Shown here: positions 4,522-43,622 of the stretch, in pieces
Numbering within the stretch: the stretch's first letter is position 1
How the letters are laid out: each line of letters begins with the position of its first letter
Assembly: GCA_029582165.1 (NCBI GenBank)
Contig: CM055888.1
Span: 18,915,501-18,979,500, forward strand
Reading direction: 5' to 3'
DNA from: Portulaca oleracea
Taxonomy: Eukaryota; Streptophyta; Magnoliopsida; Caryophyllales; Portulacaceae
Length of the DNA stretch: 64,000 bases
Notes under the pieces: model-generated
Database searches by the model: none
Told to the model about the DNA's origin: nothing
Seen by the model: the letters and a program-made list of their open reading frames with translations, nothing else
Position numbers and translations under genes: made by a program

Positions 4522-5140
4522 CCTGAAGTAGCAGCGGGCTCCCTCGAAAGTCATGTTCTGGATTCAGGTTATCCAAGCCCATCATGGTTTCCGCTAACAT
4601 TAGGGGCACGGGATTGTAGCCTCGGGACATGTCATCGACGATTTGAATTAAATTCGCAGGTCCGGTTCTTTTGCCGCCGTGATAAAAACAAAACTCGCCA
4701 AGGAGACATAATACGAGCGCTCGCACTCGTATCACAGGACCATATTCCAATGTATCAGGAGATTGAAAATATTCGACTATGGTTTGGAAGTGTACCTTTT
4801 CGCCGAATATGGCACTTCCGATGACCCAGGACGACAGACATAAGAGGTCCTTGTATTGCTTGGGAATGTCCATTGGTGTTGGAGGCGACGTCGGCCGAGC
4901 AAAGTGATTTGTCCCTAAGATTGAGGACCATTCCTCCGGAAGCGGACACAACTCCTTCCACGCGAAGCTAAAGACATGCATCTTCTGATCCCAAAAAGTT
5001 TCCGCCGCACGGAGAAAATCGTTGTTAATCCTCACTTGTCGAAGGCTCAACAAGCTCGTCAATTTGTATCTTCCAAGCTCTTTCTTCTCCTCCTTGGGTA
5101 AAGTGCTCATCCAAGTTGCAAGTGTCTTCTCGAACGCCAT
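4522..5140 (-). pseudogene. DUF7745-like cargo gene of the Tat-like element, truncated
   Basis: On the minus strand the frame opens at the ATG at 5140 and gives about 206 residues before element 1 cuts it at 4522; an apparent extension to 4466 is LTR sequence. It begins MAFEKTLATWMSTLPKEEKK and contains AAETFWDQKMHVFSF followed by ELCPLPEEWSSILG. That resembles the WDP...F.F...E..PT.EE....G signature of DUF7745-type plant proteins, which occur widely in transposable elements. Function is unknown. The start is supported by a TATA box about 95 nt upstream and a CT-rich leader. Family assignment is from memory of the motif; the coding frame itself is clear. Confidence 0.6.
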
Positions 5141-5233
5141 GAGAATCGGGGATTTTCTTTGTGTTTTAGGAGAATATGCGGTGAAGGCTTAGAAGTAGAG
5201 ATGAGGAGTGATGATTACATGCATAACATGGGG

Positions 5234-5373: not shown

Positions 5374-5473
5374 ATCAAAACCCGCGCGGGTTTTGATCTG
5401 CCCAGGTCTACACACACACTTGCCCAATCCCAGGCCCAGGGCCTGCTGAAGAGAAAGCCCGCGCGGGCTTTCT
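5374..5473. repeat. Two perfect GC-core palindromes
   Basis: 5374-5397 is a 24-nt perfect palindrome with arms ATCAAAA/TTTTGAT around CCCGCGCGGG. 5452-5473 is a 22-nt perfect palindrome with arms AGAAAG/CTTTCT around CCCGCGCGGG. Both lie upstream of the DUF7745-like gene and are flanked by GGCCC/GGGCC words. They are two of about eleven copies in this element. Confidence 0.9.
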
Positions 5474-8572: not shown

Positions 8573-9115
8573 CTAGTGGCAAAACGGGAAAAGGCAAAAT
8601 TAAAATCGGGGGCTCACCTAATGCATTGACCAAGGCATAGTCTTTCAGGCCCTAGCTGGACCCAGCACCAACACTGGGCCCACATCCATGGCCCGCAAGA
8701 TAAAGGAATTGGAAAAAGTGAATACAAAAAAAAAGTAAAAAGAAAAAAAACTGCTGGCCCAAATAAGTCGGCCCAGCAGAGCCGAAACCCGCATGGGTTT
8801 TGGTCCTGCTAATGGGCCGCACATCCAGGCCCAGTTTTTTTGGTTGGGGTTTATGTCCCAGAAAACCCGCGCGGGTTTTCCCTATTTTAGTGGGCCGTTT
8901 TCTTTGTTTCCTTTGGGTCGAGCATATTTGTAACCCACTCTGTTTTCTTTGGGTCAGGTTTGGTCCGTCTCTCAAAATGGGTCATCATTGCAAATAAATA
9001 AAGGGACATCGTGTGCTTAAAATAATAAAAATCGACAAGACAAGAAAATTAAAATTCGTGCTTGCTCATTCTTCATTATTAAACTAAGCATCAAAAGAGG
9101 GGTTTCAACAATTAC
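8573..9115 (-). other. Probable first-intron region of the PMD gene, with palindromes
   Basis: A donor (GGCAAG/GTAATT, 9115) and an acceptor (CCACTAG, 8573) bracket this stretch. It contains a slightly imperfect palindrome at 8784-8800 (AAACCCGCATGGGTTT core) and a perfect 20-nt one at 8861-8880 (GAAAACCCGC/GCGGGTTTTC). Both sit between GGCCC and GGGCC words. A second possible donor at about 8617 would give an implausibly short 45-nt intron, so exon structure here is uncertain. Confidence 0.45.
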
Positions 9116-12195: not shown

Positions 12196-12199
12196 AAAT

Positions 12200-16910: not shown

Positions 16911-16959
16911 TTCTCCCCCGGTTGAAAAAGTTTGTCCTCAAACTTAGACAAAACTTCTT

Positions 16960-17718: not shown

Positions 17719-17729
17719 GTATCTCCTCG

Positions 17730-18986: not shown

Positions 18987-18989
18987 TTC

Positions 18990-20548: not shown

Positions 20549-20560
20549 GCTCTGATACCA
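20549..20560 (-). other. Primer-binding site of element 4
   Basis: GCTCTGATACCA on the plus strand, the reverse complement of TGGTATCAGAGC, 4 nt from the 5' LTR. Confidence 0.92.
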
Positions 20561-20564
20561 ATTT

Positions 20565-21342: not shown

Positions 21343-21347
21343 GAGAC

Positions 21348-24654: not shown

Positions 24655-24753
24655 CAAAACCCGCGCGGGTTTTGAGCACCCTACAGGCCCATTTTCGCAG
24701 CTCAGCGCTTTTTAATGGCCCAGCAGGAGTCATAAAACCCGCACGGGTTTTAT
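24655..24753. repeat. Two palindromic motif copies upstream of the PMD promoter
   Basis: 24655-24674 is a perfect 20-nt palindrome with CAAAA/TTTTG arms. 24732-24753 has ATAAAA/TTTTAT arms around CCCGCACGGG (one central mismatch). GGGCC, AGGCCC and GGCCC words flank them. Confidence 0.9.
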
Positions 24754-24891
24754 ACCGACACAAAATTTTTTCAGCGACCAAAATTCAGCAGCCCAAGTTC
24801 CTGCGACCCAAGGATCCCCAACATTTAGGTAAAAATCTGAACCCATTTGCATTTTTGCGAAAACTAATATTTACTTTTCTGATGTTTTTCA

Positions 24892-25350
24892 GGTTGCCAC
24901 ATAAAAGAGCACCATCATCCGGTCACCGCTGAAAGGGACCATCTATCGTCAGGTTGCCATACAAAAGAGCACCATCATCGGGTCGCCGCTAAAAAGGGAC
25001 TATCTATCATCCGGTTGCCACACAAAAGAGCATCAACAGTGACAGTCGTCCAACGGTCGCCACCTAAAGGCCTCCATCGATGTCGTCAACGATAGTCGTC
25101 AAACGGTCGCCACCTAAAGGCCTCCAACGATGTCGTTTAAACGGGTTCCACATAAAGGTCTCCAACGACATCTTCAGCATCAGTCGTCCAACGGTTACCA
25201 TCTAAAGGTTACCTATAACCTCATCAACAGCAGCAGTCGTCCAAACGAATTCCACCTAAAGGTCTACAACGACATCTTCAGCAGCAGTCGTCCAACGGTT
25301 GCCATCAAAAGGTTACCGACGACGTCATCAGCCGGTCGCCATATAAAAGA
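24892..25350 (+). repeat. Tandem repeat array before the 3' LTR of the Tat-like element
   Basis: Two related unit types follow each other. About two to three units of roughly 60 bp contain GGTTGCCAC.TAAAAGAGCACCATC. After them come about six units of roughly 50-60 bp built on GTCGTCCAACGGTCGCCACC and TAAAGGCCTCCAACGA. Units diverge by several bases. Such arrays near the 3' LTR are known in Retand and Ogre elements. Confidence 0.75.
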
Positions 25351-25427: not shown

Positions 25428-27084
25428 TGTAGACACCGGGATTTACACCAATATAATCCCGACTTATCAAAAGTGTGAATAAAAACATCGAAGACTGGAT
25501 ACATCAATGGGCCAATGTAGCAAGCGATGCAAATAAATCAAAACAAGCCGACCCACTTCGAGTAGCAAAACGCTTACGGGTTTTAAGTTGAAGGAGACAA
25601 ACCAGAACCAAGACAGGCCCAAGGCGCGCCCCGGCCCAGACTCCAAAACCCGCGTGGGTTATCTATAACTAAGCGCGTCATTTTGACTTTGTCCACGTCA
25701 CCGATCTGTGTCTGGATATTATAAAACCCGCGCGGGTTTTATCTTCAAAAATCCGGCGCCAAAAATATGATCATCCTCCCTTGATATTAGCCCCATGTGC
25801 TTTGACATTGGCCTTGACTTGGAAGCTACGTGATTGCATGGCATGATTATGGGGATGTGTCCCCCATGATTTTCCCTTCTAAACCTCACCTCACTCAACT
25901 ATAAATACCCCCTCCATTCTTCCACTCATACCATCAACTATCCTTCACAACACTCATACTCTACTTAAATCTCCCCTCAAAATTTCATACTTCCATCCAT
26001 TTCATCAGCAACTCTCATAAACTACCACATTATACTCCCATTCTCACCAACTATCACCATAATTCTACCCTTACTCTCATAAACTCTCATCATACTTCTA
26101 TCATTCTCATTACTCTCATTACCATAACTCCACCAAAAATATCATCCACACACTACCATCCTAATCCTCTTACAATCATCCTTCATCTATCAAGTCACCA
26201 AGTCAAGGCGAGGTCACGATCTTCGAACGGCGCATTCGGGCTCCTAAATCAAAGAGGTTCGCTTTTATGTTTCTTAAATTATTATTATTTCAATCATGTA
26301 ACTTGTACTTTAATTTCGATTATATGTGCATATTTTATAAACCAAAAATTCCATTTTATCTTGCATGTTAAGAATTTAAACTTGCAAAATCTATTAAACT
26401 TCTCCCCGCTTTATTTCACTTTAATGTCGATTTTAGTAAAGTCCGTTTTCTAACGGGCGAATTCAAGAAGTTTTATAATTCTTGAATTTGTAATCTTACC
26501 CTGGACTTAGAATCGGGTTTCGTAGACCGGAGTTATTTCTATTATTTTTTACGGTTTGTCGATTTCCTTAAATCGGCTGGCGACTCTTTTATTCTTTTTA
26601 TAATCCGTTTAATTATTTAACATTTGAATTTACACTAAAAATAATTAAACATGACTTAACATTTCTTATTCATCACATTCAAGGTTTTAACCGAGAGAAA
26701 ATGGGCCATGAAATGGTAAAACCCGCACGGGTTTTATGGTTTCTGACCCACTTTCTCTAGCCCAGGAAAGCGGACGGCCCAGTCCAAGGACTGTCGAAAC
26801 CCGCGCGGGTTTTGACAGCTCTTGGTGGTCCGGTTGCTTTCTTTTGGGCTTGAATTTGCTGTTTGGGCCAATTTTAAGTTATATTTAATATATTTTTGGT
26901 CTAGTTTCAAGTATTTAAATAATAAAAAACGGATTTGTAAAATAAATAAAATTTCACCACCCCGAAAATGAATTTCGAAAATAAAATTATCCTTATTTAA
27001 GGATTAAGCAACCTTAGTCGGCTCCCGATCATTAAGTAAAGTATCACGGAGAAAAGTGGTCTCACTTTTTCCCGGGGTCCTACA
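25428..27084 (+). repeat. 3' LTR of the Tat-like element (1657 bp)
   Basis: It begins TGTAGACACCGGG and ends GGGTCCTACA (TGTAG/CTACA ends). The solo LTR at 39843-41404 shares both termini and internal stretches. A TATA box (CTATAAATACC) lies near 25899. It contains five copies of the palindromic motif: degenerate at 25567-25584 and 25641-25661, perfect at 25721-25742 (ATAAAA/TTTTAT arms), one mismatch at 26717-26736, and 26791-26818 (28 nt, one wobble pair). Confidence 0.85.
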
Positions 27085-27801
27085 AATTTCAAACTATAAC
27101 CACACTAAAATTACTCAAGTAAATTACTCAAATTCACCCTAAAAATTTACATTCAAAAGACAATTCTAAATCGAATTTCAAACCCTAAACTTGACTAACA
27201 CTAAACACTACCCTAAATTTGAATTTCAAACCATAACCACACTAAAATTACTAAAATAAATTACTCAAATACAACAATATATATGAATTTTACAATTAAA
27301 AATCAACAATTTAACTACAAAAATAAATTAGGGGACTCACATTGGTGGTTGCCGGAGATGTTGGCGTCGGTGGTTGCCGGAAGTGTGCGCACGATGGTCG
27401 CCGGTGGTCGTCGGTGGTCGCAGTGTCGGCCAGCGTCCACGGTGGTGGCCGGAGTGAAGGTGGTTGGGGCGGTGGTTGGGGTCGGGGTGTGAGAGGAATG
27501 AGCGAGATGGAGAGAGAAAGAGCAGCGTTTCGAATTGTATTCTGCCCGTTGCGTCATTAAAAAGGCCAGCGACCTATAGCCAGATACCGATACCGTATTG
27601 GTCGTTGGCTTAGCGACCGATATAACTCCAGACGAAATTAATATTACCGTTGTCGTATTTATTGAGCCTCGCGACCGATACCCAGCGACCGATAAAGTGA
27701 GCATTGCGACCGATACCGTATCGGTCCCTGCGTGTCGGTCGCCCGTGTCAATCCGAGCGACCGGTACATATCAGTCGCCCCAGACGTTTCATGTTGTAGT
27801 G
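27085..27801 (-). mobile_element. Terminus of a CACTA (En/Spm-type) DNA transposon
   Basis: On the minus strand a CACTACAACATGAAACG terminus starts at 27801. It is followed to about 27566 by subterminal repeats of CGACCGATA and CGGTCGC in both orientations, including a 19-nt palindrome GACCGATAC-C-GTATCGGTC near 27710. Next inward is G-rich GCCGG/GGTGG sequence (27340-27490) and AT-rich sequence in which AACCACACTAAAATTAC occurs twice (about 27099 and 27233). The other terminus was not found; the Tat-like LTR joins at 27084. No transposase is recognisable. Confidence 0.6.
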
Positions 27802-28317
27802 AGGCAAAGGTAGAGGACTTGTACATGACAAAGAGCATCACCAACAAGTATCGCCTGAAGGAGAAGCTCTCAGGCTACGAATGCCTGAAGGTACTCCTAT
27901 GCAGTCTCATCTTAATGAGTTTGATTCTGTTATTACTGACTTAGAATCTATGAATATTATGTATGATGATAAGGATAAGTCTATACAGCTGATTTTGCCC
28001 ATATCACCATCATATAAACAATTTAAGGAGATCATGCTCTATGGAAACTCTAGTTCCCTAAACCTTAGTGAAGTTTGATAATGATGGTGATAGGGGCACA
28101 GAGCAGGCTATTGAGGCCTTGAATGTCAGGGGTAGGGACAATGACTGCAGGTGGAACGGTAATAGAGGGAAGTTTATACATCGTTCAAAATCTAAGAATC
28201 CTTGCAGGGCGGTAAAGATAACCAATCTAATCCTGGTAACTTAAATTGTGTTGAGTCTGAGTTATATAGAGAGGGGTTCATTGCAATGGATGATGCCCTA
28301 GCTACTACCTTAGGTAG
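27802..28317 (+). pseudogene. Ty1/copia Gag remnant
   Basis: VEDLYMTKSITNKYRLKEKL and, after a one-base frame change at about 27877, RMPEGTPMQSHLNEFDSVIT and DDKDKSIQLILPISPSYKQF match the UBN2-type Gag of copia elements (LY..KS..N...LK..L / M.EG....HL.EF). An RSKSKN basic stretch at about 28185 suggests the approach to the zinc knuckle. It is cut on the left by the CACTA terminus and on the right by element 8 at 28318. Confidence 0.75.
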
Positions 28318-29035
28318 TGATGGAGGTCCTCCATCAGAACCAGCATTAGGAGTAGCAACGACCTCACCAACATCAGCATTGAGGCCATCATCAACCACAT
28401 CAAACACTGACATCCAAGAGTGCTTTATGATGGTCCAACAAGTCATGAGGTCGTCCAACAACAGCAGCATCATCACCAACAGCAGCAACCAGGCAGTGAG
28501 GTTATTTCTCAATTCCATATCTTTGGATTGAGGTCCTCCATAAAGACTTCATTTCCGAGCTGTTGAGGTCTTTTCCAGCTTGTGAGGTGAACTAACGGCT
28601 ATGTAATAATGAAAACGCGCTTTTTATTTTATTTCCTTTTATTTTGATGTTATCCAGTTTGTAATGAGGCTTAATTAGCTTGCTAAGTTAGTTAAGTAGC
28701 TTAAGCTTAATTAGTGAGTTTCTTGAGCAAGGGGAAACCCTTAATCATCCAGCTCAACCCTAGCTTTATATAGCTTGTAATTGGCAGCTTGAGGTCATTA
28801 TCTATCAGTGAAATTAATAGCATTTTGAGTGCCTTGATTGAGCCTCTTGTTTGTGAGTGACGTTAAACTCTCATTTTTGGTTAATTCTACTACAGTAGTA
28901 AGGATTTGGCAATCCTTGTGGTGGGTGTAGAGCTTGATAATCTCGATGGTGGTGTGCCTGTATCCATTGAGGTCATCCAGTCCATTGCCCTTGATGTTCT
29001 AGCTGTGGTGGGTCTGTATCAGCTTGAGCCTCAAG

Positions 29036-29848
29036 TGATGTATAATGAGACCAAAGATGATCAAATTATACACAAGATAAGGATCTTTAAAAACCAAGAT
29101 AAGAATCTTGCTTCTCAAAGTTCTTAAGGTTCGAAAATGGGATTGAAATGAATGGAAAAGATGGAAAAGAACTATGGGAAATGGTTACCAAAATGTTGAT
29201 GATGGACGAACGGATGAATGATCGAATGCTTGGATGAACAACAATGGCGACTTGAAGCTTCTTGGAAGGATAAAGGCACACCACCTTCAAGAGATCTTCA
29301 ATTCCTTCCTATCACCACCAAGGATGCCAACCTTGGATAGAAGAAGGGAGATAGTTTCGTTCTCCCTCAAGAGAAACGAGAATGACTAGCACAAAACTAG
29401 AGAGAAAAACATCATGTGTTTACTTGTATTTGATTTATGAATGAATGAATTACAAGGCACCCTAAGGGGTCTATTTATACTACTAGAGGCCCCCTTTAGG
29501 CGTGTACAAAACAAGAAATGAGCCTTTTAGGGCTTACATCATCTACTCTAATGATTACATCATAAAGAAAACAATGAACTAAGCTAGATTACAAATGATG
29601 ATAACTTGCTCTATACTTAACCAATTTTAAAGATTCTTGAACCATTAGAAAGCTCTTGGAATGTAGAACATTTCACTCTAGGACACTTTCCTTGGTAGCT
29701 TCATGGTTCTTGAGTTAGAGAGCAAATCATCACTCCTTCATGGTTAAGATCATTCGAATGTAGACCAAATGTGATAGTTTCAAGCTCTTTATCAATGTAG
29801 CTAAGTACTTGGCTTCCATGATGTAGGTTTGGAACCAAATCTACATCA
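29036..29848 (-). repeat. 3' LTR of element 5 (813 bp)
   Basis: In element orientation it opens TGATGTAG..TTTGG and the inverted CCAAA..CTACATCA, ends TATACATCA, and its first 148 nt continue the integrase frame to a stop at 29701. The purine tract is on the minus strand at 29849-29862. Confidence 0.94.
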
Positions 29849-30926
29849 TTCCCCCCTAGTTGAAAAGAGTTTGTCCTCAAACTAGGAAGTTCTCCAATAT
29901 CTCCATAAAAGGGCTTGAGATCACTCACATTAAAAGTGAAACCCCCTTCATAGTCTTCTCCAAGTTGCAATTTATATACGTTATCACCAATCTTCTCCAA
30001 AACTTTATAAGGACCATCTCCTCTTGGTGCAAGCTTACATTTCCTTTTAGAAGGAAATCTTTCTTTCTTCAAGTGAATCCAAACAAGGTCTCCCGGCTCA
30101 AATACAACCTTCTTCCTTGATTATTCACCCTACTTGATACATTTGAGGTATACTTCTCAATTTTAGCTCGAACCTCCTCATGTAGCTTCTTAATCTCTTC
30201 CACCCTTTTGTTAGCTTCAAAACTAAACTTTGTTGATGTAGAGATGGGCGTGAGATCCATAGGTTGGAGAGGGTTCCTTCCATAAACAACTTGAAAAGGT
30301 GACAACCCTGTGGCTTTACTTGGACTTCGATTGAAGGCAAATTCAGTATGACATAGAAGAGTATCCCAACCCTTCTTGTCTTTACTCACCAATATTGGAA
30401 GAAGAGTTCCCAAAGTTCGATTAGTCACTTCGGTTTGTCCATCCATTTGTGGATGACATGCGGTGCTAAACTTCAATGTCGTACCAAGATTCTTCCATAA
30501 AGTAAGCCAAAAATGACTAAGGAACTTGGAATCTCGATCACTTACCATGGTCTTTGGAATGCCATGTAGCTTCACTATTTCTTCAAAATAAAGATTTGCA
30601 ACCTTAGTAGCATCATAAGTAGTATGGCATGGAATAAAATGAGCCATCTTGGAAAATCTATCAACGACCACCATAATAGAATCCTTGCCTCTTTGTGTTC
30701 GTGGTAGACCAACAACGAAGTCTAGGCTCACGTCTTCCCATCGATGATGTGGAATGGGCAAAGGAGTATACAACCCTTGTGGCAAAGCATGTGCCTTTGC
30801 GATATTGCAAGTATTACATCTCTTTACCATATGCTCAACATCTTTAATCATGCTTGGCCAAAAATAATGCTCCTTCATCATAAGGTAGGTCTTTTCAATT
30901 CCAAAGTGACCATGAGGATCCTCCAT
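29701..30926 (-). pseudogene. Integrase of element 5 (two frameshifts)
   Basis: Frame 30926-30069 carries the zinc finger (HFGIEKTYLMMKEHYFWPSM with RCNTCNIAKAH) and the core: VVVDRFSKMAHFIPCHTTYD, VSDRDSKFLSHFWLTLWKNL, ACHPQMDGQTEVTNRTL, so D, D and E are present. A 2-nt deletion near 30920 separates it from the upstream frame. A one-base loss in an A run at about 30122 shifts the C-terminal part to the frame 30072-29701 (RGDGPYKVLEKIGDNVYKLQ, FNVSDLKPFYGD). That frame ends 148 nt inside the LTR with CSLTQEP. No chromodomain is visible. Confidence 0.9.
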
Positions 30927-33900
30927 GGACCTCCATGATCAACAACTCTCGAATGCTACTTTTAGGAATACAAAGTTGATTCCCTTTGAAGAGAAACCCA
31001 TTTTCAATATGTAAAAGTTGATGAGGGTGCTTCTTACAAAGCTCATAAACCTCCTTGAAATCCTCATCATTTTCATACAACTCTTTAATATGCTCAAAAC
31101 CAAGGACTCTTGAATCTAAAACATGAGTAAGTAAGTACCTTCTTGACAAAGCATCCGCTCCTTTGTTAACATGTCCCGCCTTATGTTTGATCACAAAGTG
31201 GAATGCTTGCATATACTCTACCCATTTAGCATGCCTTGGGTTTAACTTGTGTTGCCCTTGGATGAACTTAAGAACTTCATGATCACTATGTAAGATGAAT
31301 TCACCACTTAGAAGATAATGTCTCCAATGTTCAAGAGCTCTTATGATGGCATAGAACTCTTTATCATAGGTGCTATACTTCCTCTTAGCTTCATTCAACT
31401 TCTCACTAAAGTAAGAAATGGGGCGGCCTTCTTGGGTTAGGACGGCTCCAATTCCTACTCTACTTGTATCCACTTCAACTTCAAACACTTTGTCAAAACA
31501 TGGTAAAGCAAGAATAGGTGCATGACACAATTTCTCCTTAATCACTTCAAACGCTTCATTAGCACCTCTAGTCCATGTAAACTCTTTTCCTTTCAAAAAT
31601 TCGGTCATAGGTGCAAGAATGGAGCTAAAATTCTTTATAAACCTTCTATAGAAAGATGCTAAACCATGAAAGCTTCGTACCTCATGAATGGACTTTGGTG
31701 TAGGCCACTCTTGAATAGCTTTCACCTTCTCTTTGTCGACTTGTATTCCTTCTTGTGAAAGAACATATCCAAGGAACACAATCTTGGATGAGAAGAAATG
31801 GCATTTCTCCAAATTGGCATATAGCTTCTCCTTCTCCAAGATGTACATGACCAACTCTAGATGCTTCACATGTTCTCTTTCACTTCTACTATATACAAGA
31901 ATATCATCAAAGTAAACTACAACACATTTACTAATAAGAGGCTTCAATACATGATTCATTAAGCGCATAAAGGTAGATGGTGCATTTGTAAGACCAAATG
32001 GCATCACAAGCCACTCATATAAACCTTCCTTGGTCTTGAATGTCGTTTTCCACTCATCTCCTTCATGAATCCTTATTTGATGATATCCACTCCTCAAATC
32101 AACTTTAGAGAACACAACACTTCCATGTAGCTCATCAAGTAGATCCTCAAGGCGTGGGATTGGGAATCTATACTTGATTGTGATTTTGTTTATGGCTCGA
32201 CAATCCATACACATTCTTTGAGAGCCATCTTTCTTGGGCACAAGTAAGACCGGAACGGCACATGGACTCATGCTTTCACGCACCAAGCCTTTGGATAAAA
32301 GCTCATCTACTTGCCTTTGTACTTCTTGAGCTTCTTTTGGATTCATTCGGGTGGCCGGTTTGTTGGGGAGCATAGAACCCGGAACTAGATCAATCTTGTG
32401 CTCAATTTCTCTTCTTGGAGGTAATCCTTTGGGCATCTCTTTTGGGAACAAGTGTTTGAAACGTTCCAAAAGAGGGTGAAGTCGTGCATTCTCAATAGTT
32501 GAGGTCGCTTCTTCCTCCTCCAAGTTTACTAGAATAAGATCTTTATGCTCTTGAAATTCATGATGTTCGGCCTTCATGAATGTCACAATGTTAGTCTCCT
32601 CCTTTTGTGGTTGTTGCTGGGGACGTATAATCGATGATGGTGAGAGAGGAGCCAAAGTGATCTTTTTTTTGTTGAGAATAAACGAGTATGTGTTCATTCT
32701 CCCATCATGCGTGACATGCCTATCAAAAAGCCAAGGTCTCCCAAGAAAAATATGACAAGCATCCATTGGAATTACATCACACCAAATAGAGTCTTTGTAG
32801 TTTCTACCAATAGAAAGACTTACAAGAACACGATGAACCACTCGAATTCCCTTCCCATGACTTAGCCATTGAATGGTGTAAGGGGATGGGTGTGGACTAA
32901 CCTCCAATTGTAGTTTGCTCACCATGGTTGTAGAAGTGGCATTAGTGCAACTTCCTCCATCAATGATTAGAGAACACACCTTGCCTTGAATAGTACACCT
33001 TGTGTGAAAGATGTTTTCCCTTTGTTCTAGCTCGTTTGGGACACTAGCAACACTTAAGGCCCTTCTTACTACTAGCATTTCTCCTTCATCGGCCTCTTCT
33101 ACCTCCTCTTCCTCATTTACGTCATTTTCTTCTTCTTTCTCATGTTCATCCTCATGATACTCCGGTTCTACATACAAAGCACTTTGATATTCCACCAAAG
33201 ATACTACTCTTTTGTTAGGACACTCCGAGGCATAATGTCCTAAGCCTTGACAACGAAAACACCTTCTTGGGGCTAGGGGTTTCGGTTCTTGAACGTGGGG
33301 TTTGGGAATGGATGGGGGTTGATTTTGTGGTGCTCTTGTGTTTGGTTGTTTTGTGGGGAATGTGGGTTTTTGTGATGGATTGTATGGGCGTGTGTTTTGT
33401 GGGGGTTTGTATGAGGTTTGGTATTTGGTCACATTTTCTTTTCCTCTTTCCTTTCTTTGCCTTTCTACTTTTAAGGCCAAAGAACTCAATTCGTCCAAAA
33501 ATTGGTAAGGATGTAATTCAACAATGTTACGAATCCAATCATTTAGACCATATAGAAAACGTACCAAAGTTTGAGGTTCATCCTCTTGGAGATCACAACG
33601 CCAAAGAATATGCTCGAATTCCTTTGTGTACTCCTCAACACTTTTGCTCCCTTGGACCAAACGTTGCAATTTGTAATAGTTATCTTGGAGATAACTTGGT
33701 GGTAGGAACTTTTGTTGCAACTTTTTCTTCATTTTGATCCATGCTTTGATCTTGTCCTTCCCTTGTAGTTGCCTCTTCTTTTGCAAATTAGTCCACCAAA
33801 TGGACGCATGTTTTCGCAATTTAAGAGCCACATATTTGACCTTCTTTTCATCTTGGACCTCCTTAAGATCAAATACATGTTCAACGGTTTGCATCCAATC

Positions 33901-34158
33901 TAAAAAGTTTTCAGGATCAAGATTACCGTCAAATTCGGGGATCTCCACTTTGAAGTCGAAACGTTCCTCCCTTGGGGGACGTCTTTGAGGCACTTCTTCA
34001 TCACTTTCATTAATCTCACTATCTCCACAGTTCACCCTATGTTGTAGATGCATATATCTCTTAAGTTGATCGTTGAGATTGGTGATTCTTTTCTTCAAAG
34101 CTTCAACATCTTCTTGGGGTTCCATTGGAGTAGGTGCGGATGTGCTAGAATTGTTCAT
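30895..34158 (-). CDS. Gag-PR-RT-RNase H polyprotein of element 5
   Basis: Uninterrupted frame of about 1087 codons from the ATG at 34158 (MNNSSTSAPTPMEPQEDVEA). Order: heptad region; full capsid (FDFKVEIPEFDGNLDPENFL, HASIWW, QGSKSVEEYTKEFEHILW); zinc knuckle CFRCQGLGHYASEC (33220-33261); acidic linker; protease LIIDGGSCTNATS (about 32945-32975) with GRPWLFDR; RT with [35 protein letters not shown] and YFDD (31903-31914); RNase H with VDTSRVGIGAVLTQ, YDKEFYAIIRALEHW and LHSDHE. It ends just after the first integrase zinc-finger residues because of the 2-nt deletion near 30920. All visible PR, RT and RNase H catalytic residues are intact. Confidence 0.95.
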   Translation of the reverse strand: MNNSSTSAPTPMEPQEDVEALKKRITNLNDQLKRYMHLQHRVNCGDSEINESDEEVPQRRPPREERFDFKVEIPEFDGNLDPENFLDWMQTVEHVFDLKEVQDEKKVKYVALKLRKHASIWWTNLQKKRQLQGKDKIKAWIKMKKKLQQKFLPPSYLQDNYYKLQRLVQGSKSVEEYTKEFEHILWRCDLQEDEPQTLVRFLYGLNDWIRNIVELHPYQFLDELSSLALKVERQRKERGKENVTKYQTSYKPPQNTRPYNPSQKPTFPTKQPNTRAPQNQPPSIPKPHVQEPKPLAPRRCFRCQGLGHYASECPNKRVVSLVEYQSALYVEPEYHEDEHEKEEENDVNEEEEVEEADEGEMLVVRRALSVASVPNELEQRENIFHTRCTIQGKVCSLIIDGGSCTNATSTTMVSKLQLEVSPHPSPYTIQWLSHGKGIRVVHRVLVSLSIGRNYKDSIWCDVIPMDACHIFLGRPWLFDRHVTHDGRMNTYSFILNKKKITLAPLSPSSIIRPQQQPQKEETNIVTFMKAEHHEFQEHKDLILVNLEEEEATSTIENARLHPLLERFKHLFPKEMPKGLPPRREIEHKIDLVPGSMLPNKPATRMNPKEAQEVQRQVDELLSKGLVRESMSPCAVPVLLVPKKDGSQRMCMDCRAINKITIKYRFPIPRLEDLLDELHGSVVFSKVDLRSGYHQIRIHEGDEWKTTFKTKEGLYEWLVMPFGLTNAPSTFMRLMNHVLKPLISKCVVVYFDDILVYSRSEREHVKHLELVMYILEKEKLYANLEKCHFFSSKIVFLGYVLSQEGIQVDKEKVKAIQEWPTPKSIHEVRSFHGLASFYRRFIKNFSSILAPMTEFLKGKEFTWTRGANEAFEVIKEKLCHAPILALPCFDKVFEVEVDTSRVGIGAVLTQEGRPISYFSEKLNEAKRKYSTYDKEFYAIIRALEHWRHYLLSGEFILHSDHEVLKFIQGQHKLNPRHAKWVEYMQAFHFVIKHKAGHVNKGADALSRRYLLTHVLDSRVLGFEHIKELYENDEDFKEVYELCKKHPHQLLHIENGFLFKGNQLCIPKSSIRELLIMEVHGGSSWSLWN

Positions 34159-34431
34159 CTTGATCAATCTTTGGTGCAAAAGATTACAAGGTTCACGGTT
34201 TAGGGGATTTGGATGGGTAAAGGACGAGATGGGTTTGTGTTTGGGCGGATTGTGTTTGGGCTATGGGGTTTTTTGTGGAGTTGATGGTTCTTTATGAGTT
34301 CTTGATGGGTTCTTGTTGAGTTCTTGATGAGTTCTTGGAAGAACATAGGTGGCGTGATGATGGTGGGATGGATTTTTTGATGGAAAGATGGTGAAAAGAT
34401 GGATCAAGAACTAAGAGAATCAATCTCCTAA

Positions 34432-34443
34432 GCTCTGATACCA
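34432..34443 (-). other. Primer-binding site of element 5
   Basis: GCTCTGATACCA on the plus strand, 4 nt from the 5' LTR. Confidence 0.92.
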
Positions 34444-34447
34444 ATTT

Positions 34448-35257
34448 TGATGTATAATGAGACCAAAGATGATCAAATTATACACAAGTTAAGGATCTTT
34501 AAAAACCAAGATAAGAATCTTGCTTCTCAAAGTTCTTAAGGTTCGAAAATGGGATTGAAATGAATGGAAAAAATGGAAAAGAACTATGGGAAATGGTTAC
34601 CAAAATGTTGATGATGGACGAACGGATGAATGATCGAATGCTTGGATGAACAACAATGGCGACTTGAAGCTTCTTGGAAGGATAAAGGCACACCACCTTC
34701 AAGAGATCTTCAATTCCTTCCTATCACCACCAAGGATGCCAACCTTGGATAGAAGGGAGATAGTTTCGTTCTCCCTCAAGAGAAACGAGAATGACTAGCA
34801 CAAAACTAGAGAGAAAAACATCATGTGTTTACTTGTATTTGATTTATGAATGAATGAATTACAAGGCACCCTAAGGGGTCTATTTATACTACTAGAGGCC
34901 CCCTTTAGGCGTGTACAAAACAAGAAATGAGCCTTTTAGGGCTTACATCATCTACTCTAATGATTACATCATAAAGAAAACAATGAACTAAGCTAGATTA
35001 CAAATGATGATAACTTGCTCTATACTTAACCAATTTTAAAGATTCTAGAACCATTAGAAAGCTCTTGGGATGTAGAAAATTTCACTCTAGGACACTTTCC
35101 TTGGTAGCTTCATGGTTCTTGAGTTAGAGAGCAAATCATCACTCCTTCATGGTTAAGACCATTCGAATGTAGACCAAATGTGATAGTTTCAAGCTCTTTG
35201 TCAATGTAGCTAAGTACTTGGCTTCCATGATGTAGGTTTGGAACCAAATCTACATCA
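34448..35257 (-). repeat. 5' LTR of element 5 (810 bp)
   Basis: Same structure as the 3' LTR. A TATA box (TATAAATA on the minus strand) near 34882 lies between CCTAAAGGGGG and CCCCTTAGG. Confidence 0.94.
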
Positions 35258-35510
35258 TCAAGACTATCTCGGTTACTGATTGATTGTAAGTTTGTTCATC
35301 CGATTATCATCTTATCATCATCCATTTCATCCATTTGTTCATTGGTGTTCATACTCTGTTTTGGAGGAGGTTATAGTTGTTTCTCTGTGTTGAGGTCTGT
35401 TTTGGGTGAATTTGATTCTCTGTTTTGAGGCCAGATTGTGTGCGAGTTGTGTTAATGTGGTGTACTGTGAGGTCAATACTCTGATCTTAGGACCTTGGAT
35501 ACATCATAAT

Positions 35511-35522
35511 TGGTATCAGAGC
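35511..35522 (+). other. Primer-binding site of element 8
   Basis: TGGTATCAGAGC, 4 nt after the LTR end at 35506. Confidence 0.92.
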
Positions 35523-35563
35523 TGAGTAACATCTTGGAGGAAGTTTTGTTTGTGCATTTTATA

Positions 35564-37000
35564 ATGTCGGGCTGTAGTAAAACACCTCAGGAAGTAGCAG
35601 AACAAGCCTTGAGGGAGAAGGAGGAAATGGAAGGGAGAATGAAAATTATGGGAGAACAGTTACAATATTACATGAGGTTGCACAGGAGAGAAATCAATGG
35701 AGAATCTGATGAGGAGTCTGAAGAAGAAGAAGAGGAGAACCCTTTTAGTGGATCTGAAGGAGGAGGAAGACCTAGGTATCACAGAAGAAGGAGGAATGTA
35801 AGGAGATCACCTAGGAGTAGTGTTAGTGAATCTAGGAGTAGGAGTGAGAGGGAAAATAGAAGAGTTGAGAAATTGGACTTCAAAATTGATATTCCAGAAT
35901 ATGGAGGAGAGTTGGATCCTGATGTATTTTTGGATTGGTTGCAAACAGTGGAGAGAGTGTTTGATTTGAGGGGGTTGTCTGATGAGAACAAGGTGAAGTT
36001 GGTTGCATTGAAACTGAGGAAATATGCATCTACATGGTGGAACAACTTGCAAAGAAGGAGAGAAGAGATAAATGAGCCTAAAGTCAGTACATGGGTTGAA
36101 ATGAGGCAGAAGCTCAAGGAGAAGTTCTTACCTGAATGTTACATGAAGGAGAATTATTTCAAGCTTCAACACTTGGTCCAGGGTAGCAAATCTGTTGAGG
36201 AGTATACCAAGGAGTTTGAGCATCTACTGTGGAAGTGTAACATGAAGGAAAATGAGGTGCAGACATATGTGAGGTATCTTGCAGGGTTGAATGAAAGCAT
36301 CAGAAATGTGGTTGAACTTCAGGTGTATAATTCACTTGATGAGCTGAGTTCTTTGGCTCATAAGGTGGAACAGCAGAAGAAGACCCAAAGGAAGGAGTAT
36401 GGGAGCAAGTATCCAGCCAAAACCTATCCTCAAACCAAATCAGACCATTACCATAAATCCCATAACCCACCTCAAAGAACCTATCCATCCCCACAACCAC
36501 AAACCAGATATCCAGCCCCTAAACCACCTCAAACACAATCCCAAAACCCCCCACAAAGAACCCCAGTCCCTACTAATCGACCATTCCCTGAGAGGAGGTG
36601 CTTTAGATGTCAAGGTCTTGGACATCTAGCCTCAGAATGTCCAAACAGAAGAGTAGTGACCTTAGCAGAATATCAAGCAGCATTGTTTGTTGAACCTGAG
36701 TCAGTTGTTGAGGAGGAACAGTTTGATGAACCTGAAGGAGGTCCTGTGTATGATGAAGAGGAAGTTGAGGCCAGACCTGATGAAGGTGAAATGTTGGTGA
36801 TCAGGAGGGTCCTTAGTAGTACAACAGTTGATGAGGAAGTTGAGCAGAGGGAGAACATTTTTCACACAAGATGTACAGTGCAAGGGAAGATTTGTTCATT
36901 GATTATTGATGGAAGCGGTGTACGCAATGCCTCACGGACTATGTGCAAGCTGAATTTGCAAACTGTCCTCATCCGGCACCTTACACCATCCGATGGTTGA
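35564..37000 (+). pseudogene. Gag and protease start of element 8
   Basis: From the ATG at 35564 (MSGCSKTPQEVAEQALREKE) the frame encodes an N-terminal heptad region, an acidic stretch, an Arg/Ser-rich stretch, a full capsid (LDFKIDIPEYGGELDPDVFL, KYASTWWNNLQ, QGSKSVEEYTKEFEHLLW), a Pro/Gln-rich linker, the zinc knuckle CFRCQGLGHLASEC, and the protease beginning CSLIIDGSG. Base losses at about 36915-36930 scramble the expected GGSCTN site and end the frame at 36999. Confidence 0.88.
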
Positions 37001-37536
37001 GTCAAGTAGAGGTATCAAAATCTCATCTAGATGCCTTGTGAATTTTTGATTGGTTACTGTTTATAAAGATGAAGTATGGTGTGATGTTATACCTATGGAT
37101 GCATGTCATTTATTGTTGGGAAGACCTTGGTTGTTTGATAGAAGTGTTAACCATGATGGAAGAGCCAATACTTATTCCCTTAACCTGAACCACAAGAAAA
37201 TTGTCCTCACCCCACTTAAACCATCCCAGCTCACAAAAAGAACCAAGAACCTGATTGTTGAACCATCCCTTGATGTGATTTTACCTGCTGAATATCATGA
37301 GTTCTGTGAACAGAAGGAGTTACTTTTGCTTGATCTTGATGAAGAACCAGCCTCACAAAATGAACCAGCCCCACAAAATAGCCATCCTTTATTCCAACCC
37401 ATCCTAAATCAATACCTACATGTTTTTCCAAAAGAAATGCCACCAGGTTTACCCCCCAAAAGAGACATCCAGCATAAAATTGACCTCATTCTAGGATCTA
37501 TCTTACCAAACAAACCAGCCTATAGAATAACCCTTG
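37001..37536 (+). pseudogene. Protease C-terminal part and RT start of element 8
   Basis: DEVWCDVIPMDACHLLLGRP and FDRSVNHDGRANTYSLNLNH continue the protease. Then come the linker to RT and FPKEMPPGLPPKRDIQHKID through LPNKPAYRI. The RT stops there, at the junction with the LTR at 37537. Confidence 0.85.
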
Positions 37537-37950
37537 TGTTGTGTAAAAAAACCCCAATATAAGGGTATTAATTGTAATGAGCATGGACCTTTTCATTTCC
37601 CCTAATCCTCTCCCACTCCAATATATATATGCATTTAAATTGTTGAGGAAGAGCATTAATTATGAATGAATGAAGCTTAGTTCTCTCTCAAAAACCTTCC
37701 TCTCAAGTCTTGATTTCTTTATCCTCAATTGCATTATGGTGGTGATCCAAGCCAAGCTCTTTATAGAATTGTGGTTGTTCAACCTTTAGAAATTCTTGGT
37801 GGGTTTGCTAGCTCTTGGGTGATGTTTATCCTTTACCCCAAGTTCATATCCTTTGTAAATTGTTTGCTTAGTGCTTGGTTTGTTTATGATTCTTTATCTC
37901 CTCCATATCCAACAACTCAAGAATCAAATTTTCTATCATAATACGCTCCA
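37537..37950 (+). repeat. 5' LTR of element 9 (about 414 bp)
   Basis: Starts TGTTGTGTAAAA and ends ATACGCTCCA before the primer-binding site. It shares long stretches with 48232-48600 (GGGTATTAATTGTAA, AGAGCATTAATTATGAATG, AAGCTCTTTATAGAATTGTGG). Both are preceded by ACCCTTG, so the exact start may lie a few bases to the left. Confidence 0.7.
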
Positions 37951-37951
37951 A

Positions 37952-37964
37952 TTGGTATTAGAGC
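37952..37964 (+). other. Primer-binding site of element 9
   Basis: TTGGTATTAGAGC differs by one base from the initiator Met tRNA complement. Confidence 0.75.
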
Positions 37965-38267
37965 ATCTAGGTTGGGTTTGATTGAGTTACCTTGCTCTTG
38001 TTGTTCCAAGAGTTAGAGTTTCAATTTCTTGTTGTAACTGTGATAGAGAAATTGGGCACCCTATCCCCTGTACTTCCCCAAATGTGTTGGAGTTATTATT
38101 ATTGTCGTTGTTATTGGTGTTGTGTTGTTGTTGAGTTAGCCACAAAGAACCCAAAAACCCAAACACAAGCCAACTACAAAGAACCAAGCTCCACCAAAAT
38201 TTGCTAAACACATTCCGTCTCTTACCCTCCTTTTGAAGTGGATGAAGCTAATCCGAACCAAGAGGAG

Positions 38268-41200
38268 TCAAGCTGGCGCCAAAGATCCCAAAATCCGGTC
38301 ATGGAAGACCGCGTCTTGTCCATTGAACGAAATCATGAAACTCTCATGGCCAAAGTACAAAACATCTCCACCCACCTTCAATGCCAGCCTCGTGAAGAAT
38401 GAATAAGACCAACTTGTAGCCCTATCTGCCCTTCTCCCGCTTTTGAGTTGAGTGACTACAATAGAGGCTCCCCTCAACACTATCGTTGATGGAAGATAGA
38501 CAAAAAACCTCCATGAGATGAATTCTATGATGTGAAAATTGAGATCCCACAGTTCAATGGCTCTATCGACCCCGACGATTATCTGGAATGGGTCCAAATC
38601 ATGGAACAAATTTTCGACACCAAAGAGTATAGCGACGAAAAGGCATTCAAAATTGCCAGCCTGAAACTCACCAAACTGCATCGCTTTGGTTTAAGAATGT
38701 GAAGTCACAGCGAGCTAAGGAGGGTAGAACGAAAATCACCTCATGGAGGAGGTTAAAGCAGTCGATGAACCGACGATTTTTGCAAAGGACTTACAAGCAA
38801 GACGTCATGAAGAAGCTCTTCGTCCTTACGCAAGGGAAGAGAAGTATGACTGATCACATCCAAGAGTTTGAGCAACTCCTCATCAAGAGTGACCTTCAAG
38901 AACCTGATGAGCAAACAATGGTGAGGTTTTTGAACGGGTTGGACCCTGCCATCGCTGAAAAGATTGAAATTCAGCCCTACCACTCTTTAGATGGACTTTG
39001 CAGTTAGGCCTCAAGGTTGAGCGGTAAAGAAAGGAGAAGGATGCCACCAAGCCAATGACTCGACCCTTTTTTCCTTCTCCCACCCGACCCCCTACTCGAA
39101 TACTCCAAGACAACAAGAAGCTCCCAAGTCCACTACTTCCACTAGAGTCGATAAGAGCAAGGGCATTGCTTTTCCCTCCCCTACTGAGCTTCCCAAAAAG
39201 ATAGAGGGTAATTAGTGCTTCAAGTTCCAAGGGAACGACCAATTTTAGGATGATTTCCCATCCCGGGGGACCTTGAGCCTTCAATAAGTTCAAGAAACTG
39301 ATGAGGATCTTCAAATTGCACAAGAAGAACCACCCTTCGTTGTTGAGGATTGGAATGAACCCGATGATGATAACATAGTACCTTCACCGGTAGTGATAGA
39401 AAGTCTTCTTATCTTGAGAAGGGTACTACATGCTCAAGAGTCCCCTCTTGACAAGGCTCAAAGGATATGATTTTCCAGATGACATGCTTTGTTGGGGGAA
39501 AGTTTATAACATCATCGTCGATGGAGGGAGTTGCACTAATGTCGCTTCCACCCCACCCAGTCTCCCTCCTATTCACGACATAGAGCATCAGATTAACCTT
39601 GTGCTTGGACCCCCTTACCCAACAAGGAGGCCTACTAGTGCAACCCGCAAGAAACCAAGGAACTCCAACAACATGTGGATGAGCTCATTTCTAGGATACG
39701 AGAGAACATGAGCCTTTGCTCCGTCCTGACTCTCTTGGTTCCTAAAAGGATGACACTTTCCATATATGCGTCGACATTCGAGACATCAACAACATCATCA
39801 TCAAATACCCGTATCCTATAATGAGGGTTGTCGACATGTTAGTGTAGGACCCGGAAAAGATTCTCATTCGGGGAAATCGTTTCGGATGGCTACTTAGGTG
39901 ATGGAGAGCCGACTGAGGTTGCTTAATCCTTAAATAAGGATATTTTTATTTTTTGAAATTCATTTTTTGAGGTGGTGAAACTTTATTTATTTACAAACCT
40001 AATTATATTATAAAAATACTCGAAATCGCACAAAAATATTTTATTAATGACTTAATACCGACCCATTCTCGGATTTAGGCCAAAAAATTAAGAAGACAAA
40101 TGAGCCGCCAGAAAATACAAAAGGCTGCCTAACCTTTGATGTCTTCTTGGTTGGGCCTTTAATTCTCTCGCCCCAGAGAAAATGGGTTGAAATTAGTGAA
40201 GGTCGCGTAGCCTTTGCTAATTTTTGTGCCCATTTTCTCTTGGGTTAGCCTTGGATTGGTGAATATGGAGGTACTAAGCCATTTTTAAATATTTTAATGC
40301 AAAGACCTGTATTTTTAATAATTAAAAAGGTTGTAAAAAGAAGAAAGAGTCGCCAGTCAATTTAAGAAAATCGACAAAGCAAAATAAAAGAAATAACTCC
40401 GGTCCACGAACCCGATTTCTAAGTTCAGGGGTAAGGTTACGAATCCGAGAATTAAAGGAACTCTCGAACCCGCCTGTTAGAAAACAGACTCTACTAAAAT
40501 CGAACTTGAAATGAAAAGAGGGGAGAAGTTTAATAAATTTCGCAACAACACATTCTTGAACATGTAATAAAAACAAAGAGGTTTTCTTTTACAAAACATG
40601 TACAATTAAAGGAATTAAAGCACAAATTACATTATTAAATACAATAATAATGAAAAGCAAACCTTGTTTGATGGTGGATGTTTGAATATGAAGATCAACC
40701 CCTTGATTTAGCCTCGGTTTGGAGCTCGGATGGAAGAATGTATATAAGAATGGTTAGGAGGATGGTGTAAGAATGGTGATGTGGTGATGATGAGAGTGAT
40801 TATGGGAGCATTAGAGAAGGAGAATGGATATAATGGAGAGAATTTTGAGAGAGTTTTGGTAGTATGATGATAGTAGTTGATGAAAATGATTGAAGAATGG
40901 TGGGGTATTTATAGGTGGAGAGGTGAGGGATTTGGAGGGAAAGATGAAAGACATATCCCAACAATCAAGCCCCTCCATGCAATGATCAAAGGTCATACGG
41001 CTATTGACATTTTCTGGTCAATCCAAAGTCAATCACGTGTGCTATGATCAAGGGATGTGCATGGGAAATTCTGGTGCCAAAATCAAAAGAATTCGCAAAG
41101 GTCAGGCGGGCCTATGGTGTGCAAGGACACGGATCGGTGACGTGGCGTATGAAGGCGGGCCGCTACTCCTTGCAAAGGTCATGCGGCTTTTACCATTTTC

Positions 41201-43622
41201 TACTGGGCTAGATTCGCTTGTTGGGCCAGCTTGTGAATTAGTAAAGGTCCTACGGCTTTTATAATTTCCATACTGGCTGTCCTGATATGTTGGGCCTGCT
41301 TTGTTGACTCCGTGGGCTCAATGACCCATTTTGGTATTCGGCCTAAATGACTTGCTGAGTTTTTACGGGTCGGAATTTTGTTGGTGCAAATCCCGGTGTC
41401 TACAGTTAGATGAGTTGCATAACTTCCTGATCTTCTCTAAAATTGATCTATGAAGTCGCTACCACTAGATTCAGGTGCGGGCAAGGTGATGAGTGGAAAA
41501 CGACATTCAAAAGCAAGGGTAGGTTATACGAGTTATGCCCACTTCAACGCCCCTAGCACCTTCATGCACCTCATGAATGAGGTTTTGAGGCCTTTCATCG
41601 CCGAGTTTGTGGCTGTGTACTTCGACAACATCCTCGTCTACTCTAAGAGTGAGAGCGACCGTATCTCACACTTAGAGTCCATGTTGAAGATCCTTCTCGA
41701 GAAAAATTGTTCGGTAAGCTCGAGAAATGTGAGTTCTTTACTCAACAAGTCATATTTCTCGCCTTCATTGTGTCAGACTAAGGAATCTCCTTAAATTCCT
41801 CGAAAGTGGAAGCAATTTGATCATGGCCCGTTCCCTCCTCCCTCACAGAGATGAGAAGCTTCCATGACTTTTCTTTGTTCCATCGGAGGTTCATTCAAGG
41901 ATTCAACACCCTCACTGCCCTCATCACCGAATGTATGAAGAAGGGCACCATCGAATGGACCAAATCGGCCCAATCGACCTCTGAGAAGTTTAAGGCCAAG
42001 TTGTGTGAGGCTACAGTTCTCGCCCTCCAGACTTCTCCCAGGTGTTCGAGGTTGATTGTGACACCAATGGAGTAGGCATTGGCGCCATACTTATGCAAAA
42101 TCAACACCCGAAAGCCTACTTCAGCGATAATCTTAATGGCTCGAGGAAGCACTACTTGATCTACGCCGAGGAGTTCTACGCTTTGGTTCGTTCCCTCGAC
42201 CATTGGGCACACTGCTTAAGGCCCAATCAGTTTGTCCTGCACTCAAACCACGATGCCCTTAAGTACTTAAACGGCCAGCACAAGCTCAACACCTGACATG
42301 CCAAGTGGGTAGAGTTTCTCAAGAGCTTTATTTTCCTGGCCAAACACTAGAAGGAGAGTGTTAATGTTGTGGCTGACGCCCTCTTGAGGTGCCATACTCT
42401 GTTGCCGGTCATGGAAGCTCGTGTTCTAGGTTTTTAGCATGTCCAAGCCTTGTACAAGGGATTTCAAACCTCGCCTTGATGGTGATAGTGGTCCGTACAT
42501 CCTATAAGAAAGGTTCCTTTTCAAGGGGAACAAACTCTGCATCCCTAGATGCCCACTCGAAGCTACACGTCAAGGAGGTTCACAATGGTGGTCTTTTCGA
42601 TCATTTCGGCATCAACAAGACCCTCAATATGCTCAAGGAGCACTTTTACTAGCTCGGATGGGTGGCGATGTGCACAAGGTGATATCAAAGTGTATCACGT
42701 GCCGTCATACTAAGAGTCAGTTCCATCAAGGACTTTATACTCTTTTTTTGATCCCAAACAACCCTTAGGAGGATCTAAGCATGAACTTCATCGTGGGTCT
42801 TCCCCGGATTGTACGACATAAAGACACGGTGATGGTCGTGGTGGACTAATTTTCAAAGATGTCGCACTTCATAGCCCGTGAGAAAACTGATTTTGCGACC
42901 TACATCGTTAACCTCTTTTTCTGGAGGATTGTAAGGTTACATGGCATCCCGAGGACTATCTACTTGGACCGAGACACTAAGTTCATCAACCACTTCTGGA
43001 GGTCCCTTTGGAAGCATCTTGTGGCACTAAGTTGCTTTTCAGCACGTCCCATCATCCCCAAACTGACAGTTAAGCTGAGGTAACCAACAAGGCCCTCTTC
43101 ACCTTGCTTCGAGGACTTGTAAGCAATTTATGGGATTCGGATATCAAGCTATGCCATGCCAAGTTCGTAGGCAAACCGAGCTCCCTCCTTCGCTACCGGC
43201 CACTCGCCATTTCAGACTTGCTGCGGCATGAACCCGCACACTCCTTTTGTGCTCCTTCTATCACAGTTGGAATCGAGAGTGAGTTTCGAGGCTAGCGAGA
43301 AGGTCAACGAGGTTTAAAAGCTTCACCAACAAATTCGGGGAAGGATAAAAAACATCAACGAGATCTACAAGTCTAGGGCCAACAAGCTCTGCCGGAGCAT
43401 CAACATTCAAACTTGGGGACTTGGTTTGGCTACATCTGAGGAAGGAATAGTTCCTGTCGAGGAAGAAGAACAAGCTCATGCAAGGAGCAATGGACCGTTC
43501 AAGCTTTTGGAGAAGGTCAACGGCATCGCCTACAAGCTTGATCTTCCCGGCGACATGGAAGTCTTCTCCATCTTTAACATTGGCGATCTCTCTCAGGTTC
43601 CTTACTCTTCACTTGTCATCTA
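38268..43622 (+). pseudogene. gag-pol of element 9 (many stops and frameshifts)
   Basis: Recognisable in changing frames: capsid IEIPQFNGSIDPDDYLEWVQ (about 38540) and QGKRSMTDHIQEFEQLL (about 38830); protease VDGGSCTNVAS (about 39520); RT start HDIEHQINLVLG (about 39575), then the solo LTR splits the RT at 39842/41405; VYFDNILVYSKSES (about 41615, YFDD changed to YFDN by G to A); RNase H EVDCDTNGVGIGAIL and YAEEFYALVRSLDHW (about 42050-42200); integrase FGINKTLNMLKEHF, DRDTKFINHFWRSLW (about 42970) and a C-terminal FNIGDLS (about 43580). Not functional. Confidence 0.85.
39843..41404 (-). repeat. Solo LTR of the Tat-like family (1562 bp)
   Basis: In LTR orientation it begins TGTAGACACCGGGATTTGCACC and ends GGGTCCTACA, like the LTR at 25428-27084. 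It is flanked by GTTAG at 39838-39842 and 41405-41409. Shared blocks include CACGTCACCGATC and GAGAAAATGGG. Instead of the AAAACCCGCGCGGGTTTT motif it has six copies of an AAAAGCCGCATGACCTTT-type motif at 40118-40138, 40198-40216, 40987-41006, 41096-41115, 41173-41191 and 41242-41261. Confidence 0.92.

Follow-up and report, generated by a model that had tools for sequence, protein, structure and literature searches.

Dispersed 18-bp words that change together within copies of an LTR retrotransposon family of Portulaca oleracea: putative binding sites of a drifting recogniser

The LTRs of the window and their 18-bp words

Portulaca oleracea carries a family of long terminal repeat (LTR) retrotransposons in which short dispersed words have largely changed together within copies. 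The family is described here from a window of 64,000 nucleotides (C21:18915501-18979500, from a searched genome of 1.13 Gb in 63 contigs) that holds two of its LTRs, LTR A and LTR B (Table 1). LTR A is a 3' LTR, and not a free-standing one, because the polypurine tract AAAGTGGGGG lies directly upstream of it. LTR B is solo, as the first-pass annotation of this stretch had stated, with CTAAC on either side (39838-39842 and 41405-41409). The homology of the two, also proposed there, is borne out by 72.7% identity over 781 bp and 88.9% over the first 36 bp.

The same annotation had recorded five 18-nucleotide motifs in LTR A and six in LTR B, alike within each LTR, with two sites equivalent in position between the LTRs. 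Both sets were recovered, those of LTR A 0-5 bases off the recorded positions. The first equivalent slot lies ~30 bases past the start of CACGTCACCGATCNGTGTC in both LTRs, and the second is enclosed by the GAGAAAATGGG arm and the partner of that arm (CCCACTTTCTC in LTR A, CCCATTTTCTC in LTR B). The equivalence of the slot after CACGTCACCGATC stands, although its LTR B word is among the weaker ones. The LTR A sites are exactly 78 bp apart in each cluster (U1-U3; D-E), and the six LTR B words have 0, 2, 2, 4, 5 and 6 mismatches from AAAAGCCGCATGACCTTT. With up to three mismatches, the A word occurs 10 times in the window vs 0.01 expected, and the B word three times vs 0.03 expected.

Table 1. 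Features of the window, in window positions
Feature	Position	Strand	Remarks
LTR A	25428..27084	+	3' LTR, element body to left; TATA box 25900
LTR A 18-mer, slot U1	25567..25584	+	4 mismatches from A word
LTR A 18-mer, slot U2	25645..25662	+	
LTR A 18-mer, slot U3	25723..25740	+	perfect palindrome
LTR A 18-mer, slot D	26718..26735	+	within longer pairing arms
LTR A 18-mer, slot E	26796..26813	+	within pairing arms
LTR B	39843..41404	-	solo; TATA box 40913 (-)
LTR B 18-mer	41243..41260	-	LTR position 145
LTR B 18-mer	41174..41191	-	LTR position 214; identical to the B word
LTR B 18-mer	41097..41114	-	LTR position 291; slot after CACGTCACCGATC; 5 mismatches
LTR B 18-mer	40988..41005	-	LTR position 400; slot closest to TATA box
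LTR B 18-mer, slot D	40198..40215	-	LTR position 1190; 6 mismatches
LTR B 18-mer, slot E	40120..40137	-	LTR position 1268; best match inverted, 4 mismatches
Two 18-mers (24656, 24734)	24656..24751		upstream of TATA box of antisense PMD gene (24460, -); same layout in L009
Two 18-mers (8784, 8862)	8784..8879		between exon 1 and PMD exon of antisense gene; intron inferred
PMD reading frame, antisense	8156..8572	-	PF10536, 35.5 bits, cut-off 34.9, E 8.6e-9; partial match
Next frame, same antisense PMD gene	7823..8155	-	weak PMD match below cut-off, 15.4 bits, E 0.011
Two 18-mers (5377, 5454)	5377..5471		upstream of TATA box of second antisense gene (5241, -)
Second antisense gene frame	4466..5188	-	weakly DUF7745-like, 22.1 bits, curated cut-off 26, E 9.3e-5

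Family layout and word classes

Both LTRs are members of a single large family; they share the LTR block CCTTATTTAAGGATTAAGCAACC, which has 2,418 exact occurrences in the genome. The start word TGTAGACACCGGG has 1,687 exact genome copies and is common to further LTR families too; nine of 20 loci around it match LTR A/B. The family layout consists of three or four 18-bp near-palindromes upstream of the LTR TATA box (slots U1-U4) and two ~0.8-0.9 kb downstream of it (slots D and E, near -270 and -192 from the LTR block). Three of the upstream slots follow one another at ~78 bp steps (69 bp in some copies), often with a fourth ~100-110 bp on. Spacings of 76-80 bp make up 53 of the 79 in a hand-collected list that includes some non-representative copies, and they recur at non-homologous arrays. 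Helical phasing was considered from hand-picked spacing modes near 50, 69, 78, 89, 100, 110 and 118 bp and set aside as only suggestive, since 2.3% of random sets reach the vector strength of these modes.

Four word classes were counted by exact matches in the genome: class A (AAAACCCGCGCGGGTTTT) with 2,544 sites, class T2 (AAAACCCGCCTAGGTTTT) with 3,143, class T3 (AAAACCCGCTGGGGTTTT) with 267 and class B (AAAAGCCGCATGACCTTT) with 24. The corresponding searches with reversed patterns, run as controls, gave 0 every time. Additional classes are of the GAAGGCC, CAAGGCC and ATAGGCC types. Much of the internal variation of class A (GCGC, GCAC, GCGT) looks like CG decay. The class words have one frame and a CCGC-like core in common.

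All family relatives of LTR A and LTR B were drawn from contig C1 of this one genome. The 35 LTR segments were reduced to 26 representatives (<50% shared 12-mers), of which 19 have at least three sites; the others (L045, L048, L051, L052, L056, L058 and L062) were left out of the comparison within and between copies. The sample was partly chosen, with 20 segments picked for lacking the listed exact A word and eight of the other segments coming from loci found via the exact A word. Copies that share a class cannot be counted as independent, since the classes track the LTR tree. Sites were located with the framework NWARSYNNNNNNRSYTWN, built from words already seen; its construction limits positions 2-6 and 13-17, a pairing rule ties positions 1-6 and 13-18, and positions 7-12 are free. 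The framework finds 154 sites in the 35 segments vs 12 in local shuffles, and was adopted after an earlier, stricter search had given 0 sites in 10 of 22 segments, LTR B among these. Doubtful cases kept in the comparison are one false-looking word each in L060 and L025, and the downstream words of L044 and L049, labelled E by distance and aligning with D. A plasmid search gave no match.

Concerted change within copies

Among the 19 representatives, words of one copy differ on average at 3.66 of 18 positions (211 pairs), and words of different copies at 6.25. Words in the same slot of different copies are 5.86 apart at D and 6.63 at E (136 pairs each). The sites therefore do not vary independently, because likeness within a copy exceeds likeness at the same slot between copies. 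Upstream words match the downstream words of their own copy at a distance of 3.94 vs a permuted mean of 6.11, and 0 of 5,000 permutations were as low. These results confirm the earlier observation and make it wider than first noted. The internal consistency it described holds on average over the 19 copies, with the correction that LTR B (0-6 mismatches) is less uniform than LTR A.

Classes A and T2 are also segregated along contig C1. In the range of contig C1 covered by both word lists there are 50 A and 65 T2 sites; of the pairs that these form within 1.5 kb, 49 join two sites of the same word and one is mixed, where permutation gives 24.8 mixed pairs on average. The exact A word is found in 18 of 78 LTR blocks and the exact T2 word in 12 (10 of these 12 in the common range), while no block has both. 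Like words also occur in the adjoining 1.7-10 kb, with A words near six A-word LTRs and T2 words near three T2-word LTRs. The within-copy matching and the A/T2 segregation rule out independent site variation. The T2 word is direct at all 14 upstream sites and inverted at all nine downstream sites.

The likeness is confined to the words themselves. Agreement among the upstream sites of a copy is 0.51-1.0 within the 18 bp and 0.19-0.44 beyond them, and the within-copy excess is greatest at word positions 4, 5, 10, 11, 14 and 15. At D and E, copies of different word classes have homologous flanks, except that L044 and L049 are without the E region. In a tree of the downstream LTR part with the motif columns removed, six classes need five changes, which is the minimum; the B class (L050 and B) is divided between two adjacent branches, and the two ATAGG copies are not recovered as a separate group. 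Most word classes are clades, and the classes roughly agree with the LTR tree. The words at D and E were also set against their flanks over five classes, with ATAGG joined to the GG types. Word and flank divergence are 0.154 vs 0.222 in pairs of the same class (41 pairs) and 0.398 vs 0.302 in pairs of different classes (130 pairs), and words outdiverge flanks in 96 of the 130 different-class pairs and in 6 of the 41 same-class pairs.

Antisense genes and arrays in the element body

The A word is also present in the body of the element that ends in LTR A. Three pairs of words, 77-78 bp apart (24656/24734, 8784/8862 and 5377/5454), were assigned to two minus-strand genes, the first of which matches the plant mobile domain (PMD). 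About a dozen 18-bp near-palindromes stand beside the promoters of this element. The PMD gene is split by nested gypsy insertions from ~9392 to 24440: it stops after CCTCAT and continues at CTCATTCACC, with CTCAT at both insertion edges. The less broken copy L009 is uninterrupted at this point and reads CCTCATTC. From the matching insertion edges and from L009, we infer that LTR A and the minus-strand genes are one element.

L009 shows the same order. Three words lie 211-373 bp upstream of the TATA box of its first gene (2303) and three further words 523-677 bp downstream; its 3' LTR is at 3463, and L009:709-1404(-) is a partial match to PF10536 with 55.2 bits vs the cut-off of 34.9. In each of L031, L036 and L042, the TATA box of the second gene is preceded by two words and followed by one at a distance of 0.78-0.79 kb. 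All three promoters, that of the LTR and the two antisense ones, share this plan: an array lies upstream of the TATA box and, in copies that can be read far enough, at least one site lies 0.5-0.9 kb downstream. The element proteins of this family were read from A-word elements. A structure prediction for the second antisense open reading frame had a mean pLDDT of 40 and was not used. The genome-wide PMD profile search, in which 117 of 5,314 candidates were scored (119 matches), gave no link to word positions, because its best matches are full-length or nearly full-length PMD genes.

Short repeated units, GTTGCCACATAAAAGAGCACCATC-like and CGTCCAACGG-like, were seen by eye at 24890-25350, a stretch that separates the body array from the polypurine tract. 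Other loci that begin with TGTAGACACCGGG carry two other palindromes, CGTGGTCAATTGACCACG and GTCCATGCATGCATGGAC or near variants, 74-76 bp apart (L013:1562/1636 and 8761/8837; L019:3123/3198; L028:3875/3951), and by eye also antisense-like frames of PMD type. Another kind of palindrome, with a CGCCCG or CGGGCG core, occurs at L014:1698/1771, L019:461/543 and L028:4786, with spacings of 73 bp in L014 and 82 bp in L019.

Probable binding sites of a changing recogniser

The 18-mers are probably recognised by a putative sequence-specific DNA-binding factor that acts in the service of the promoters of the element itself. The specificity of the factor would drift differently in separate lineages, and selection on active copies would rewrite the sites of a lineage to fit it while the flanks keep diverging. 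A protein probably binds the words. The first-pass annotation had offered two interpretations, binding sites that follow a changing recogniser and repeated gene conversion. The former survives, as the sites do not vary independently, and it is favoured over conversion because of the sharp 18-bp edge, the homologous flanks and the fact that the classes are mostly clades.

The recogniser is most likely a protein that the element makes itself, from either the PMD gene or the other antisense gene; like VANC in VANDAL elements, it would guard the promoters against silencing. The best candidate is the PMD-type protein. A fuller mechanism can be put forward tentatively. An element-encoded PMD-type protein might bind arrays of 18-bp words with ~78-bp spacing that flank each promoter, those downstream of the LTR promoter being inverted in one class at least, and might keep the promoters open. 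Its specificity would have drifted repeatedly, giving an LTR retrotransposon an independent VANC-like code of self-recognition without tandem repeats.

Several observations weigh against the recogniser interpretation. Two LTRs run counter to the segregation of A and T2: an A-type LTR with two T2 words at a distance of 8.5 kb, and a T2-type LTR with an A word at 7.8 kb, the latter word lying in slot E of a different LTR. At D and E the divergence of words and flanks is 0.241 and 0.276 between A and T2, and 0.267 and 0.263 between A and T3; since the two are similar here, the excess of word change rests on the deeper splits. L059 and L060 have T3 words upstream and AAAAGCC..CTTTT in slot D, and may be transitional or recombinant. 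L063 (C1:20180760-20182620) combines A-like words, which occupy four slots, with an exact T2 word at slot E, which makes it a candidate for local conversion or recombination. The earlier claim that the words change together is upheld by the within-copy matching; the two words of L059 and L060 and the mixed set of L063 mean that the change was not perfectly simultaneous. Considered by itself, the D-E interval shows no unusual constancy, as 19% of 78-bp windows are equally constant. D and E have pairing arms that a binding site alone does not need. Finally, the antisense proteins come from A-word elements only, and co-change of word and protein falls outside that sample. Two more T2 words were noted ~7.1 kb upstream of L063.

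Alternative explanations

Host factors, such as transcription factors or insulator-like proteins, could bind the words instead, the element lineages having switched between factors. The sites do lie upstream of TATA boxes, as is usual for host-factor sites in LTRs. However, one frame and a CCGC-like core persist across classes, so the words look like the drift of one specificity and not like a jump between factors, and the same word stands at the LTR promoter and at both antisense promoters. Both arguments are indirect, and host factors appear an unlikely explanation.

Gene conversion, or template switching during reverse transcription, could homogenise the words of a copy with no need of a recogniser. 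The sites are short and alike, LTR elements often recombine, conversion among transposable element copies is known (PMC6598467), and the single T2 word among the A-like words of L063 could be a local conversion. Conversion tracts would, however, carry flanks along, yet the likeness ends at the 18-bp edge, and every slot retains its own flanks across classes; the T2 words are moreover inverted at the downstream slots. Gene conversion is disfavoured because of this edge and these slot-specific flanks, and we regard it, already weakened, as improbable.

The words could also be hairpins selected as RNA or cruciform structures, for example as signals for packaging, dimerisation or transcript processing. 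They are near-palindromic, and the ten-base flanks on either side show better pairing within copies than across them at both D (8.06 vs 6.92 of 10) and E (7.35 vs 6.20), with 0 of 5,000 permutations each. Because of this pairing, an extra function or a mutational mechanism at D and E, both downstream of the LTR TATA box, is likely. The flanks of U1, U2 and U4, by contrast, have no within-copy pairing excess and those of U3 only a weak one (304 of 5,000 permutations), several classes retain in-word mismatches at the same places (e.g. GCC..GAC), and structure alone needs no identical letters at dispersed sites. Pure hairpin selection, which fits only the D and E arms, was rejected; a hairpin explanation of the words as a whole has a similarly small chance of being right.

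Ordinary descent, with classes as subfamilies that inherited their words and concert only apparent through common ancestry, agrees with classes that track the LTR tree and with only about five counted class changes, but is very improbable, as it explains likeness at the same slot and not the same new word at non-homologous slots with unrelated flanks, and is contradicted by the within-copy matching across slots and by the D/E words that outdiverge their flanks mainly between classes.

Comparison with known systems

Non-autonomous pararetroviruses reportedly show concerted evolution of regulatory sequences; going by the title of that report, the likeness lies in the concerted change of non-coding regulatory DNA, and the kind of element is different. 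Judged by titles and the openings of abstracts, with subscription journals largely outside coverage, no report of such a word set in LTR elements was recognised.

In Arabidopsis, the motifs of VANDAL elements occupy non-coding DNA, introns included, differ between related families and evolve in step with VANC, the anti-silencing protein that the element itself encodes, which binds the motif and removes DNA methylation (PMC5735166, PMC10398659). The present words are likewise short, family-specific motifs in the non-coding DNA of an element, a probable intron included, that change together. VANDAL elements are DNA transposons, whereas the present family is an LTR retrotransposon with TG..CA ends, a polypurine tract and a 5-bp duplication. 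The VANDAL motifs lie in tandem repeats, whereas the words here are dispersed, spaced near-palindromes with unrelated flanks, and their likeness ends at the 18-bp edge. VANDAL/VANC would be the nearest relative in mode of working.

Retand and other gypsy elements have antisense open reading frames between pol and the 3' LTR, for which a regulatory, DNA-binding role has been proposed (PMC11963269, PMC7264820); the Tat/Retand lineage of Ty3/gypsy elements (definitions in PMC6317226) is marked out by reverse transcriptase phylogeny and by where an extra RNase H domain lies. The present family resembles them in having antisense genes upstream of the 3' LTR, the likeness covering their place relative to that LTR. 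The antisense pieces differ in matching PMD and, weakly, DUF7745, and not TRP28 (PF04195), which is absent from the Pfam matches of the pieces scanned, the rest of the gene lying outside the scan. No LTR word set for Retand-type elements is described in the accessible parts of PMC11963269 and PMC7264820. The plant mobile domain proteins MAIN and MAIL1 are tied to the silencing of transposable elements, to gene expression and to a promoter motif named 'DOWN' (PMC7156037). They too combine PMD proteins with a promoter motif; unlike the present genes they are host genes, and DOWN was set beside the words by description only.

Implications

How a regulator and its many dispersed binding sites change together is an open problem. 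The present family offers thousands of copies, matched site sets, possible intermediates (L059 and L060) and candidate recogniser genes within the element, so that the path of such a change is traceable. If the recogniser is indeed element-encoded, sequence-specific self-protection would reach beyond the VANDAL group of DNA transposons, and a function would emerge for the antisense genes of plant gypsy elements, so far unexplained.

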